Below are positions 13,040-21,049 of a stretch of DNA of 27,272 nucleotides, piece by piece; positions within the stretch are counted from its first letter, which is position 1; every line of letters starts with the position of its first letter. The translations under genes were made by a program, and so were the position numbers. The DNA is from Globomyces pollinis-pini (lineage: Eukaryota; Chytridiomycota; Chytridiomycetes; Rhizophydiales; Globomycetaceae), in NCBI GenBank assembly GCA_025399215.1, contig MU621320.1, positions 1-27,272 on the forward strand. The letters are read 5' to 3'. Below the pieces are notes generated by a model. That model had not been told where the DNA came from. It did no database searches and saw nothing but the letters and a program-made list of their open reading frames with translations.

Positions 13040-14024
13040 CTACCAATCCAAATCCGGCGAAGTAGAGCAGGTCGATTTCTTCCAATCGTATACACCACCT
13101 CGTTCAAAAAAAGCATCTTGATCCCATTCAGCTTGTTCTAACGCAACTTGTACATCTACATCAAGCAATGATTGACTTGGAACTTTCCCAATTCCAACCT
13201 GACAATTTAAAAAGCATAAATTTTCATCCAATATCAAATATGAATTTCTCATACTATTATTGTCTTCTTTAACCAACGAACTTTGTTGTGAATGTCGATC
13301 AATAAAAGATTGGTACTCTTCAGCAGTAATTTCAAAATCTGTAGCATTTCGAATAGTGTTTTGACCATTATTTTCCGTTTCCAAGACCAATACCTGAAAA
13401 CATTTCCATCGGAACGGATCTAGTAACGTAATCATTTCATTCATATCTTCCATATAATTGAATCGATTGACAACCGTGTTAAGTTTAAATTTGATATCAA
13501 ACTCCTTACACCACTCTTTGATTTGAACAATCTTTGCTTTAAAGCTATAAAGTATTTACCTTACCAAGATGGTCAGTCTTTCCGTCACCACGTCCAATCT
13601 TTGCATTTGTCTTGGGGTCAAATGAATCACAAGAGATGGCAATGATATCAATATACTTTGCGTATTTTTGAAGAAACGATTTTCTTAAAAGACTTCCGTT
13701 ACTGACAATCGATATTGACTCGAGACCTAAACTTTCTTTACAGTATTTTGCTAAAGTACCAACAAATCGCGGATCAAGCATTGGTTCTCCTCCAGCAAAG
13801 TTGAGCTTTTTCATACCAGCATTCGATAACTTTTCCATTACAGCTTTAGCTTGTTGGATTGTACATCTTGTTGAAGTTTTGGCAGTATGAAAACAAAACC
13901 CACATGAGTAGTTGCAGAGTCTGGTGAAGTGATAATTTACAGATATAGGTATCACCGTTTTCTTGGAAGATTGTTTGATGATATAGTACACTGCTAACAT
14001 AATGCAGAGAATGGCCAATAGCAT
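13040..14024 (-). CDS. RSAD2: Viperin (radical SAM ddhCTP synthase family), 318 aa
   Basis: Viperins use S-adenosylmethionine and a [4Fe-4S] cluster to convert CTP (in some relatives other NTPs) into 3'-deoxy-3',4'-didehydro nucleotide, a chain terminator of viral polymerases. Exons 14024-13565 and 13536-13040; one 28-nt intron. Residues 1-16 form a hydrophobic membrane anchor, shorter than the vertebrate amphipathic helix. Cluster cysteines are C37, C41 and C44 in LCNYSCGFCFHTAKT. Then come NFAGGEP (75-81, SAM binding), SIVSNGSL (105-112), ISCDSFDP (130-137), IGRGDGK (143-149) and NTVVNRFN (173-180), then SYLILDENLCFLNC, RGGVYDWKKS and the terminal DLDW, which in animals recruits the CIAO1 iron-sulphur assembly machinery. 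No motif is broken. It diverges from the CMPK2-like kinase, with 45 bp between starts. Confidence 0.96.
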
Positions 14025-14069
14025 TTTTGGGAAAATCGGGTAGAAATCTTTAACTTTAAAAACCGGAAA
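14025..14069. promoter_or_regulatory. 45-bp bidirectional promoter between viperin and the nucleotide kinase
   Basis: Only 45 bp separate the two start codons, so the pair must share a bidirectional promoter, or one or both promoters overlap the partner's coding sequence. The stretch has an A/T-rich core (CTTTAACTTTAAAAACC) and no spliced leader is seen. Co-regulation of the pair is inferred from this geometry. Confidence 0.6.
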
Positions 14070-14651
14070 ATGAGACCAACGAAATGGATTGTTATTGAAG
14101 GATTGGACGGTACTGGGAAGACCAGTATCTCAAAAGGGATTGCATCCAGACTTGAAAACTCAATTATATCACCATCCCCAGATCAAAATGCGCGGTCATT
14201 GTTTGACGTTTGTTCAAATCCCATTCGTCGATCTTTTTATTTCCTATGGAACTCTGTCACCAAAGAATTTGCTTTGAACCAATTGGCTTTGGGGAAGAAT
14301 GTCATTACGGATCGTTGGTTGTGTAGTACTATAGCATATATGAATTGTATGGATATAGTTGTTGATGAAGTGTCCCAATCCCTGATAACATTCAACAAGT
14401 GCTATCCAACAGACAGAATGCCAGATATAACAGTTTACCTTCACACGGATCAAAAAACGAGAATTGAACGTTTGAAGCAACGAGATGGAATCCAACACAC
14501 TAAGGAAGAAATTGCATTGTTCGATTCACAAACTCAAGAATTACTTCATCAAGAATTTCTAAAACAAGGGTCATTCGATTTGATCATCGATACAAGTGAC
14601 TTGACGATAGAACAAGTGCTTGATTGCATCTTACGCGAGATCTTAAAATGA
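14070..14651 (+). CDS. CMPK2: CMPK2-like nucleoside monophosphate/diphosphate kinase (thymidylate-kinase fold), 193 aa
   Basis: Intron-less. P-loop GLDGTGKT (11-18), then IRRSFYFLWN (51-60), VITDRW (77-82, the DR motif that binds the acceptor phosphate), MPDITVYL, and a LID region beginning RLKQRDG (133-139). The fold is that of dTMP kinase. The IRRxFYxLxN segment, the short SPSP stretch before it and the DRW-x-ST pattern resemble vertebrate CMPK2 rather than Cdc8-type dTMP kinases. Human CMPK2 is about 449 aa with a long N-terminal part; here only the kinase core is present and no mitochondrial presequence is visible, so it is probably cytosolic. Its position beside viperin suggests it makes CDP/CTP (or another NTP) for that enzyme. 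The substrate is inferred, not shown. Confidence 0.85.
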   Translation: MRPTKWIVIEGLDGTGKTSISKGIASRLENSIISPSPDQNARSLFDVCSNPIRRSFYFLWNSVTKEFALNQLALGKNVITDRWLCSTIAYMNCMDIVVDEVSQSLITFNKCYPTDRMPDITVYLHTDQKTRIERLKQRDGIQHTKEEIALFDSQTQELLHQEFLKQGSFDLIIDTSDLTIEQVLDCILREILK

Positions 14652-14762: not shown

Positions 14763-15188
14763 ATGGAAAAATGGCATCAATTTCTCGGACTTCCTCGTCA
14801 TTCAAAACAATGGTATCGAATTATGTTACGGGGAGAAATTAAAGAACTTCATCAAGCAAAGACCCAATTAGAGAAATTGAGTGAAAGGAGTGATATCTAT
14901 TATGCATTACAGCGTGCACAATTTGATGGATATCCAATACGAAAATTGGATTCATTCAGACCTAAACATTTGGTGGCTATTAGTTATATGGTCGCTAAAT
15001 ATACGAACAGATGGCTTTATTATCGTTTAATTGGTTGGATGTGTGGATCAAAAGTACCAATTACAGAGGTTGTGAACCCAAAGAAAGAAGAAAAGCTGGT
15101 TAAAGTGGCAATCAAGTATGGTATAGACTCTGTTCAGTTTTGCAAAGTTGCTAGACGTTTAGGCAAGATTTGGGTTTTCATACCATAG
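14763..15188 (+). CDS. Conserved fungal protein of unknown function, 141 aa
   Basis: Single-exon gene 111 bp after the kinase and in the same direction. The start was taken at MEKWHQFLGLPRHSKQWY; an upstream TTG-led extension is open but lacks ATG. It matches, from memory of sequence pattern, a family of small fungal hypothetical proteins with the order WYRxxLRxElxExxxA, LSExSDxxxxxxRAxxDGxPxRxL, YMxAKYTxRW, REVVNPxKxxKL and a final RRLxxxWxxxP. The function is unknown. It is basic and mostly helical, with no signal peptide. The RRLGKIWVF end and the VVNPKKEEK segment are the best conserved parts. Whether it belongs functionally with viperin and the kinase is untested. Confidence 0.78.
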   Translation: MEKWHQFLGLPRHSKQWYRIMLRGEIKELHQAKTQLEKLSERSDIYYALQRAQFDGYPIRKLDSFRPKHLVAISYMVAKYTNRWLYYRLIGWMCGSKVPITEVVNPKKEEKLVKVAIKYGIDSVQFCKVARRLGKIWVFIP

Positions 15189-16817: not shown

Positions 16818-18584
16818 TCAGTCAATGTTGGAACCACTCTCTTTAACTGTGCTGATCAAACTATCCTTAAACTTCAGTTTGTCGAAATTTAATGGTGATG
16901 GATTAGCTAGTTGTTTAGATTCAAAACTTGGTTTAGGGTTCGATGGCATTTTGGTGAGTTTCTGTGGATCAAGTGATACGGAATTAGATGGGAGATTTGA
17001 ACCTGAAAGCAGCTCAGAAGGCCAACCATTTACAGATATATAAGTGTTTGCATTTTCCACTTCTTCTGGTATTTTGGATTGTTCATCTCTTGGTTTCATT
17101 TGATTTGGTTGGACTCTGTTTTTTGATTCAAATAGTCCCAGTAAACTGTCAATTAAAAAGTAATTGATCAAGTTATGAATACAAAGACATAATGCTTTGA
17201 TGGATCCAAAAAACATAAACCATCGATCACTACCAGCTAATGGTGTATAGATTTGAATACAAATCAGAGTGTAGTAAATAATGGTGTTCAATACCTGAGC
17301 AATCAGCATAATTAGAAATCCCTTTTCCCGTTCAAATATATAGCTGATAATCTCACCTACCGATTTCTTTCCATTCTTTCTAGCCAAAGTGATTGCTGAG
17401 AAAATAGATGGGATAGTGTTGTAGATAAACATGAAAACGATCCAATAACCACTCAATGATTTCCAACCTACCATAAAGTTATATGGTAAGCAATTTTTTG
17501 ATAGATTAAAGCAGATATTGAAGTATCTACTACCAGATAACAATAAGTGAATGAGAAACACCAAAACGTATAGTCCAAATGATACCAATCGAGAAGCGAG
17601 AGGGTTAAAGAAGCGGAGAACGAAACTTGAAGTATGAATGGTAGTGGACAATGTAGCCAAATTAAAAAACACTCCCAGAAATTGAAATGTGATGGCATAA
17701 TTATTTGAGGTTGAGTAAGTATAAAAGATATAAATGGATACATAAATGATCCAACATACCTGGGACATAACCAATATTCTAAAGTATCTTTGTTTCCTTT
17801 TTTGAAATAGTAATTGAAAGCATAGTAATACTGTTAGCATCGACAAACCCCAACAAATATGTTGTAAAATATCTGGAAATGCATTGGTGTTTGGTACTAG
17901 ATATTGACCAGGTAATGAAGTTGTCCATCCAGTCTTTATCGATGAAACGGGGATTTTGTTTATCATTCCACTGACGTTTTGAAATTCAGGAATTGTTTGG
18001 TCCGTGAGTTTGGAGGTTAATTGTATTGATCTTAATGGGATTGAACAATTATCATTTTGGTATACGGTAAAGTAACCTGAATCCGTACATGTCATTTTAT
18101 CAATACAATTTCCATTTGCTAGAATATAAATATCAAGATATCCTTGTAACCCATTATTTTCAGAATGTAAAGAACAATATTGAATCCCACTAGAGTCTTT
18201 GTGATAGACTGTTGGTGGACTTGTATTGATTTCCATAGACATTCCACTTTGATATCCATCCGATTGAGAAATATCCAAGGAACTAACACAACATTGATCA
18301 TGAATTTGAACCGGAAGAGATCCACAATACCCATACGGTGCACCCATAGTAGACAATTTATAAATTGAACTCCAAGTGTCATTCGAAGTTGGAATGACTT
18401 GTTTGAAATCAGAAACACGAAAAGAATACATGGACGTTGGAGGTCCAGTACATGTATCTGATTGTATCCATTGGGATGAAAACATCAAACTTTCACTATA
18501 CACTTGCGTTATAATCAAGTGTATCAATGATGGTTTTAAAATCATTGCAAGGATTGGTTTAGTATTAGAAAGTGGAGATTTCAT
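16818..18584 (-). CDS. 7TM receptor-like protein with cysteine-rich ectodomain, 588 aa (paralogue A)
   Basis: Single exon. An N-terminal hydrophobic signal (about residues 12-30, before SESLMFSSQW) leads an ectodomain of about 200 residues with ten or more cysteines (DTCTGPP, YGYCG, DQCCVSSL, ILANGNCIDKMTC). Seven membrane spans follow, the first at ~240-262 (ICWGLSMLTVLLCFQLLF) and the last at ~440-470 (SDRWFMFFGSIKALCLCIHN). The ~110-residue C-tail is polar, rich in Ser and Pro. The layout is that of a cell-surface GPCR and loosely recalls frizzled/smoothened-like receptors of amoebae and early fungi, but the cysteine pattern is not a clear frizzled CRD. Its 5' flank including the start codon is duplicated at 19315-19474. 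The next 7TM gene is a clear paralogue. Confidence 0.82.
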   Translation of the reverse strand: MKSPLSNTKPILAMILKPSLIHLIITQVYSESLMFSSQWIQSDTCTGPPTSMYSFRVSDFKQVIPTSNDTWSSIYKLSTMGAPYGYCGSLPVQIHDQCCVSSLDISQSDGYQSGMSMEINTSPPTVYHKDSSGIQYCSLHSENNGLQGYLDIYILANGNCIDKMTCTDSGYFTVYQNDNCSIPLRSIQLTSKLTDQTIPEFQNVSGMINKIPVSSIKTGWTTSLPGQYLVPNTNAFPDILQHICWGLSMLTVLLCFQLLFQKRKQRYFRILVMSQVCWIIYVSIYIFYTYSTSNNYAITFQFLGVFFNLATLSTTIHTSSFVLRFFNPLASRLVSFGLYVLVFLIHLLLSGSRYFNICFNLSKNCLPYNFMVGWKSLSGYWIVFMFIYNTIPSIFSAITLARKNGKKSVGEIISYIFEREKGFLIMLIAQVLNTIIYYTLICIQIYTPLAGSDRWFMFFGSIKALCLCIHNLINYFLIDSLLGLFESKNRVQPNQMKPRDEQSKIPEEVENANTYISVNGWPSELLSGSNLPSNSVSLDPQKLTKMPSNPKPSFESKQLANPSPLNFDKLKFKDSLISTVKESGSNID

Positions 18585-19511: not shown

Positions 19512-21049
19512 TCATTGTGAAGATTTAAGATTATTGGTTTGATTAGAATCCGATATTGGTGCGGTTTTTTTCACTGAATTCCAAACTTCTCTTAAAAATA
19601 CACCCACTCTCTGAATCATCAAAGCCGTTAGTACCTTATGAATTCCAAATAAGCAAAACGATAAATGTCCAAAAGCAAAATATGCACGATCACTTCCCAA
19701 AAGCTTAACATTCATCTGAAAGTACCCAACAAGGTAGTAAAGAAACGTAATCAAGAGTCCTGTAATATACATGATTGTGAATGTGAAATCAATGGTGAAA
19801 AATTTCATCACCAATATTTTGGTTATATTCAATGTGTGTAATGATTTGGAAAGTACGATGAGAACAATAAAAGTCACAGGAATAATATCCAATATAAATG
19901 TAAATACCCCACTATAAAGTTAATATAAACGTTTTACAGGTAAAACGAAAGTCGCATCCATTCAAACAACATATCATCCGTGATTGTACAAGTTACTTCT
20001 TTAGCTACACACAATAGGGCATAGTAACCGCCATACAGTCCCAGATTAACCAGTACTACAGTCGAATATGCCAGCACACGCAACATTTGCGAATCGGGGA
20101 TGATGGGTAATTGTAAGTTGGCAATTTGGTATACCGTCAAAAGATTGGTGAGTAAGAAATCGAGACCAATACAAATATATTGAAGTTCTCCAATAAGTAA
20201 GACCATGAAGTCATTGGGGAAGAGAACGTAATGATATAGAAAACGTGGAATGAATCCAATGAGTCGAAATATCACGATAAACATCATATATAGCCAAAAT
20301 CGGGATTGAAGACGACGATATAATTGATAGGAGTGTGCCAGTAGATAGACTGTACATGATAAATATATGATCACCGTCGCATGTGAGATTAAATGCCAGA
20401 TCGACATTGTGTTGGCAATAGCTGCACGATCAGGAATATCGGTGATCCATTCCAAAACCACAGATGCATTTTGAAAGAGTGTGTGAGACATTTCCATCTG
20501 CCCGATAGGTGTTTGATGTGTGGTTGGGATAGTGGTAAGAGAGTATACAAATGGGGTACCATTACAATTGGGTAAAGTGTACAATTGTAATGTACTATTG
20601 CGCAGGCATTTATAGTTATTGATACATTTTTCATTTGCTAAAAATGCGAATTGGTTCAAATGGTTATCTGTAGGATTTATGATGCAATAGCGGTTGTTGT
20701 TTGTCGATACAGGTATATGATTCCAATCCACACTATCATGGGTGAAAGTCGAGCTACTCGCATACCCACCAGATGCGGTGAGATTCATTGATGTGAAACA
20801 GCAGGTATCGATCGATTGGATACTCGATGCCCCACAACTTGTATATTGCAACACACCCAGATTAGTTTTGAACGTGTATGATGGTGGATAGGATGGTGTA
20901 GATACGGAGAACAGAGAGATGGAGTCTGGGGGACCTATACAATCTGGAATAGACCACTGTGATTCAAATATCAGTTGACTTTGTGTGTGTAATAGTAGGA
21001 TTGAATATATAAGCATATTTGTAATTAGGTAATTGTAAAATCTGTACAA
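19512..21049 (-). CDS. 7TM receptor-like protein with cysteine-rich ectodomain, 503 aa (paralogue B)
   Basis: Exons 21049-19938 and 19911-19512, joined across a 26-nt intron that falls inside the fifth membrane span (SFYLGVFTFILDIIPV). A signal peptide (about residues 8-25, LITNMLIYSILLLHTQSQ) precedes an ectodomain sharing cysteine spacing with paralogue A: FESQWSIPDCIGPPDS, YTSCG, DTCCFTSM, FLANEKCINNYKC. Seven spans follow, the last at GSDRAYFAFGHLSFCLFGIH, which shares the GSDR-FG-C-IH pattern with paralogue A. The C-tail is short (~35 residues), unlike the long tail of A, so downstream coupling may differ. It is divergently arranged with the GPI-anchored protein gene, with 188 bp between starts. 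Ligand and function are unknown. Confidence 0.82.

Follow-up and report, generated by a model that had tools for sequence, protein, structure and literature searches.

A viperin gene head to head with a CMPK2-type kinase gene in a chytrid fungus: a candidate antiviral nucleotide module

The genome of the chytrid Globomyces pollinis-pini carries an intact viperin gene and, next to it on the opposite strand, a gene for a nucleoside monophosphate kinase of the CMPK2 type. The start codons of the two divergent genes are separated by exactly 45 bp. The pair lies in a stretch of 27,272 bases, here called the window, which is one whole contig of the genome that was searched (18.5 Mb in 459 contigs). 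Modules of viperin and such a kinase are already known from vertebrates and some bacteria; the literature consulted did not describe one in any fungus, although an earlier description may exist. The partnership between viperin and a nucleotide kinase is thereby extended to a fungus. The chytrid pair probably represents an antiviral nucleotide module, in which the kinase would raise CTP and UTP for a viperin that makes ddhCTP and ddhUTP. It also offers an independent case in which to ask what viperin needs a kinase for, a question on which the human data consulted disagree.

The viperin gene is encoded on the minus strand in two exons. Exon 1 (13565..14024) contains a hydrophobic N-terminal stretch followed by the CxxxCxxC, GGEP, SNGSL, and SCDSFD motifs, and exon 2 (13040..13536) ends in the terminal DLDW and a stop codon. 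They are separated by a 28-nt GT..AG intron (13537..13564). The kinase gene (14070..14651, plus strand) is a single exon that encodes 193 aa without an N-terminal extension, and the spacer (14025..14069) is presumed to serve as a shared promoter. A sequence-only reading of this DNA had described an intact viperin with all of these motifs (the cluster motif reads CNYSCGFC), a 45-bp start-to-start spacing, and a divergent arrangement, and each of these points was confirmed; the genes are divergent in vertebrates as well. The intact reading of the gene was likewise borne out, with the 28-nt intron as a feature that the earlier description did not contain. Ten splice choices, including two with a length of 28 nt, leave the viperin frame open; the one chosen is free of gaps at this place in comparison with mouse viperin, and the alternative sits 5 nt further 3'. 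Introns of similar size, as judged by eye, are present in the Cdc8 gene of the same genome. The genome search returned a viperin match at this site only.

The neighbouring genes with Pfam matches are of an ordinary eukaryote type (AsnRS, TPR, DDT/WHIM, CBS, and SIS proteins), and five of the nine ORFs scanned near the pair gave no match to Pfam. A 141-aa ORF (14763-15188, plus strand) lies 111 bp downstream of the kinase gene on the same strand and matches nothing in Pfam or NCBIfam. Further along, two minus-strand genes (16818-18584 and 19934-21016) look similar by eye, with cysteine-containing N-termini and several hydrophobic stretches, and neither product has a Pfam match.

The spliced viperin, read from 14024 to 13040 across both exons, has 318 aa. 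It scores 259.8 bits with the NCBIfam model viperin_w_prok, above the cut-off of 180, and 383.2 bits (1e-114) with TIGR04278, below the cut-off of 450 of that stricter model. Identity to mouse viperin is 51% (147 of 288 aligned residues). All three cluster cysteines are the same as in mouse viperin, and so are all eight inspected positions, which we take to be NTP contacts of the mouse enzyme. Each of the nine PDB matches carries one of the names viperin, viperin-like enzyme, RSAD2, and radical SAM core domain protein. Residues 1-17 are hydrophobic (mean Kyte-Doolittle 2.4), as would be expected of an anchor to the ER or to lipid droplets.

To place the protein, a quick tree of 79 rows was used, which comprised the window viperin, 21 named eukaryotes (nearly all fungi, one animal), 30 unnamed hits that were counted as eukaryotic, and 27 rows from prokaryotes or viral contigs; the eukaryotic hits were drawn from the best 120 of 2,292 matches. 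The 52 rows taken as eukaryotic lie on one side of a branch with an SH-aLRT value of 99. The window viperin falls with five unnamed sequences in a set of six (support 98), and a set of 11 (98) adds Acaulospora, Entrophospora, Glomus, Mortierella, and Funneliformis. The closest named fungal viperin among the matches listed is that of Entrophospora, with up to 59% identity. The protein thus groups with fungal viperins, and this placement within fungi implies that it resembles an ordinary fungal viperin rather than an import together with a bacterial kinase.

The kinase ORF matches Pfam Thymidylate_kin (PF02223) at 4e-17. An in-frame stop lies 17 codons upstream of its start, with no ATG between. 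Vertebrate CMPK2 has an N-terminal extension with a mitochondrial signal, and both are absent here. A separate, canonical, intron-rich Cdc8 gene is located on another contig (C37) of the same genome. When human DTYMK was searched against the whole genome, only this Cdc8 locus was found, and elephant-shark CMPK2 found only the window kinase gene. In BLASTP comparisons, the window kinase scored 57.4 bits against the human CMPK2 domain (an approximate sequence), 46.2 bits against a cyanobacterial and 35.0 bits against a Pseudoalteromonas viperin-linked kinase, and 28.5 bits against its own Cdc8. With the PADLOC model VakA, the cyanobacterial and Pseudoalteromonas viperin-linked kinases reach 3e-57 and 9e-68, the window kinase 2.5e-13, and the own Cdc8 1e-4; a VakA search of the genome returned the window kinase as the sole match. 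PDC-M51B, also a PADLOC model, gives the window kinase a stronger match than VakA does (1.7e-21; own Cdc8, 2.4e-12). The NCBI dTMP kinase model gives the window kinase 69.2 bits, under its cut-off of 83.25, and gives two CMPK2s and the bacterial viperin-linked kinase L118 lower scores (58.2, 49.7, and 48.6).

The window kinase shares 191 of 193 residues with HDV02_005874 of Globomyces sp. JEL0801 (order Rhizophydiales), and it is 27-33% identical to nine CMPK2 rows. The protein search with the kinase (49 candidates) yielded the Globomyces relative only. Among the best 120 of 231 matches to a kinase profile, mostly vertebrate CMPK2 and unnamed sequences, no row was named as fungal except this relative. 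The JEL0801 kinase is thus present in the searches, and the JEL0801 viperin is absent from the best 120 of 2,292 viperin matches, which may reflect a broken gene model.

A residue linked to substrate specificity is informative here. Arg76 of human DTYMK, which we take to recognize thymine, has an Arg counterpart in all 13 rows of the dTMP-kinase side, and the window kinase has Asn61 in this column. Asn is also found in nine of nine CMPK2 rows, of which seven come from named animals and two are unnamed, and in 10 of 13 bacterial kinases adjacent or fused to viperin (C, G, and G in the other three), although such counts ignore kinship and the ten bacterial cases amount to about three clades. It is absent from all ten CMPK2-like bacterial kinases that lack a true viperin nearby (8 V, 1 G, 1 L); the surroundings were inspected out to about 1.5 kb for nine of these and out to 3 kb for the tenth, the Acinetobacter kinase L007. 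In the sample studied, this Asn therefore splits most viperin-linked kinases and CMPK2 from the dTMP kinases, and it also sets them apart from CMPK2-like kinases that have no viperin neighbour. The TxEE motif occurs in the window kinase, the nine CMPK2 rows, and five viperin-linked kinases. It is weaker evidence, because L235, which lacks a true viperin, and the canonical Tmk L180 carry it too.

Two trees were calculated for the kinase, one of 35 rows and an enlarged one with 11 more bacterial kinases from 25 profile-matched loci. L187-L189 were dropped as not dTMP-kinase-like, and near-duplicates (L092, L093, L183-L186, L196, L205, L231, L232, and L234) were left out. In the 35-row tree, a 99/98 branch parts the dTMP kinases from CMPK2, the viperin-linked kinases, and the window kinase; L007, which is not viperin-linked, also falls on the CMPK2-type side. 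On that side, the window kinase forms the basal branch (91/86). In the enlarged tree the main split has 97/96, and the branching order within the CMPK2-type side is not resolved. The branch of the window kinase is long (1.87, and 2.53 in the enlarged tree). Animal CMPK2 joins the deltaproteobacterial L118 in the best trees (96/92 and 82/79), without the window kinase.

Approximately unbiased (AU) tests narrow these placements. Grouping of the window kinase with eukaryotic dTMP kinases is rejected (p 0.017 in the 35-row and 0.0005 in the enlarged tree), and the firm grouping with Cdc8-type dTMP kinases that would have contradicted the original proposal was not found. The test does not reject holding the window kinase with animal CMPK2 (p 0.068 and 0.095, respectively), with the TxEE-bearing set (0.304, enlarged tree), with the viperin-linked kinases of cyanobacteria and Pseudoalteromonas (0.125, 35-row tree), or with the whole dTMP-kinase side (0.133, 35-row tree; 0.124, enlarged tree, canonical Tmk L247 included). 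The trees alone leave the place of the kinase unfixed, and the claim that it is CMPK2-type is consequently carried by the reciprocal searches and the Asn. On this basis, the assignment to the CMPK2 type is supported, and orthology to animal CMPK2 is not supported. An ordinary dTMP kinase paralogue of the Cdc8 type is a highly improbable alternative. It could draw on the shared Pfam family, the p values for joining the whole dTMP-kinase side, and the 69.2 bits on the dTMP kinase model, a score under the cut-off; yet the canonical Cdc8 sits elsewhere in the genome, DTYMK and CMPK2 find different loci, Asn replaces an Arg carried by all dTMP-side rows, and the AU test rejects the grouping with eukaryotic dTMP kinases. 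The Cdc8-type identity was rejected for these reasons, and the earlier call of a CMPK2-like kinase stands.

Linkage of viperin to kinases of this family was surveyed in prokaryotes. In ten of 80 viperin loci (L092-L097, L112, L114, L118, and L148), a kinase ORF of this family runs in the same direction as viperin and either overlaps it or lies no more than 275 bp away, a rate that is biased because the query of the scan was itself a kinase-linked viperin. Six more of the 80 (L128, L129, L138, L140, L167, and L171) weakly match other kinases or fusions. An additional 30 viperin loci came from 377 genomes belonging to one bacterial group; four of these loci have a kinase of this family, namely L196 and L205, already counted, and L197 and L219, where it is fused to viperin. 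Passages of PMC11249213 state that 15% of bacterial viperin genes adjoin a CMPK2-like kinase. The reverse search used a CMPK2-type profile on 235 genomes of the same bacterial group. Its four best matches all lie with viperin and three of them share one reading frame with it; one of the four, G004, is part of the profile, and the best match was found by construction because the profile contains L118. The fifth-best match adjoins a radical SAM gene that is weakly viperin-like (22.9 bits). A true viperin was present at four of the 25 loci examined out of 30 profile matches, some of the 25 being canonical Tmk.

Some of these loci deserve separate mention. In three bacterial genomes (L197, L219, and L233), a single reading frame encodes both viperin and a kinase of the CMPK2 type; L233 is cut by the end of its contig. 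At L235 and L236, bacterial CMPK2-like kinases adjoin radical SAM genes that are weakly like viperin (22.9 and 38.9 bits). L007:2143-4499, from an Acinetobacter plasmid record, holds a CMPK2-like kinase that is 33-34% identical to the window kinase and adjoins a radical SAM protein that lacks the viperin motif, together with a 4Fe-4S protein of weak similarity to viperin. This locus gave the best plasmid match to the kinase and was considered as a viperin pair. It was rejected as such, as the radical SAM neighbour lacks the N-terminal viperin cluster motif and reaches pVip at 1e-11 only; possibly it is another radical SAM-kinase system. Among 40 matches listed for viperins and lookalikes on viral contigs, no locus had a kinase ORF, and a search for viral relatives of the window kinase found none.

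The two chytrid genes might also be chance neighbours, with viperin beside an unrelated CMPK2-type pyrimidine (d)NMP salvage kinase in a gene-dense genome. The stretch is indeed gene-dense, as the short distance from the kinase to the next ORF illustrates, CMPK2-like bacterial kinases often have no viperin neighbour, the pair is known from one fungal genome, and several adenylate-kinase-family genes of this genome could provide CMP/UMP kinase. Against this, scaling up from the roughly 15 gene models that were counted by eye in 27 kb gives about 10,000 genes genome-wide, and a given gene would then adjoin a given partner by chance in about 2 in 10,000 cases, a figure that depends on the count by eye. 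Moreover, the partnership was known in advance from two other groups, vertebrates and bacteria, and the kinase bears the Asn common to most viperin-linked kinases. Chance neighbourhood is therefore considered rather unlikely, and a functional module is the reading that we prefer.

In the proposed module, both genes would probably be co-expressed from the 45-bp gap. Since the kinase lacks an N-terminal extension, it is probably cytosolic, unlike vertebrate CMPK2, and a cytosolic kinase would be within reach of viperin. There it may phosphorylate CMP and UMP, and perhaps dCMP and dUMP, and the additional CDP and UDP would enlarge the CTP and UTP pool. Viperin, presumably held on the ER or on lipid droplets by its N-terminal hydrophobic helix, would use SAM and its [4Fe-4S] cluster to convert CTP, and UTP, to the chain terminators ddhCTP and ddhUTP, which would be expected to halt viral polymerases and hence viral RNA synthesis; the sequence-only reading had proposed RNA mycoviruses as the likely target. 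Extracts of the literature fit parts of this scheme: a fungal viperin from Thielavia converts both CTP and UTP (PMC9642334), and CMPK2 phosphorylates dUMP, dCMP, CMP, and UMP (PMC9132166).

The kinase could have another job within the same module, such as re-phosphorylating ddhCMP and ddhCDP or balancing pools, instead of supplying CTP. According to portions of PMC12889620, ddhCTP did not fall in one human cell system when CMPK2 was knocked down, which counts against a strict supply model, and portions of PMC9132166 describe a preference of CMPK2 for dUMP and dCMP over CMP and UMP. The published view of CMPK2, however, as far as it appears in the consulted parts of PMC11249213, PMC12889620, and PMC9132166, is one of substrate supply, and we regard the other job as unlikely. 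Supply of CTP and UTP to viperin thus remains the favoured role of the kinase.

The origin of the unit was also considered. Bacterial contamination or a recently imported operon was rejected on account of the eukaryote-type neighbours, the position of viperin among eukaryotic rows, and the G+C content of the kinase gene (0.381), which is inside the range of nine genes (0.335-0.393). In GC3, however, the kinase gene (0.361) exceeds the other eight (0.167-0.335), and it may have been imported at an older date. The separate placements of viperin and kinase in the trees lean towards assembly within eukaryotes over ancient linkage. A review, in the part consulted, gives CMPK2 an independent bacterial origin (PMC11249213). 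A more specific scenario, which we put forward only tentatively and hold to be rather less than even, is that the unit arose independently of its vertebrate counterpart, by the joining of a fungal viperin that had been inherited vertically to a CMPK2-type kinase with a separate origin, perhaps an old bacterial one, and converged on the same head-to-head, co-regulated antiviral architecture. If the unit was independently assembled, this architecture arose more than once, and such a repeated origin, if true, would be strong evidence that selection acts on the co-supply of pyrimidine NTPs.

Several known systems can be compared with the chytrid pair. Other fungal viperins, from Trichoderma and others and including the assayed Thielavia enzyme, belong to the same enzyme family as the chytrid viperin, and the literature on them that was found describes no linked kinase; in PMC10732462 (Culbertson and Levin), which treats fungal viperins, the word kinase is absent from the portion of the main text consulted. 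The eukaryotic dTMP kinases DTYMK and Cdc8 share PF02223 with the window kinase, which differs from them in lacking the Arg equivalent to R76. The vertebrate RSAD2-CMPK2 locus resembles the chytrid pair in that its genes are adjacent and in opposite directions, and the FYxLxN, DRxxxST, and TxEE motifs of vertebrate CMPK2 are common to the window kinase. In contrast to the vertebrate locus, the chytrid genes are only 45 bp apart, and the kinase, at 193 aa, has neither the N-terminal extension nor the mitochondrial signal and stays apart from animal CMPK2 in the best trees. The chytrid is not known to have interferon. Passages of PMC12889620 describe a common promoter and divergent transcription for human RSAD2 and CMPK2 and mention fusions in some lower organisms, and passages of PMC9132166 place chicken viperin and CMPK2 next to each other in opposite directions. 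The prokaryotic systems listed in PADLOC as pVip, VakA, and pVip-kinase combine viperin with a kinase that belongs to the family of the chytrid one and is either encoded next to viperin or fused to it. In the ten linked loci found here the genes are co-directional, and elsewhere they are fused, whereas the chytrid genes are divergent; and the prokaryotic pairs carry bacterial viperins, whereas that of the chytrid falls among the rows taken as eukaryotic.
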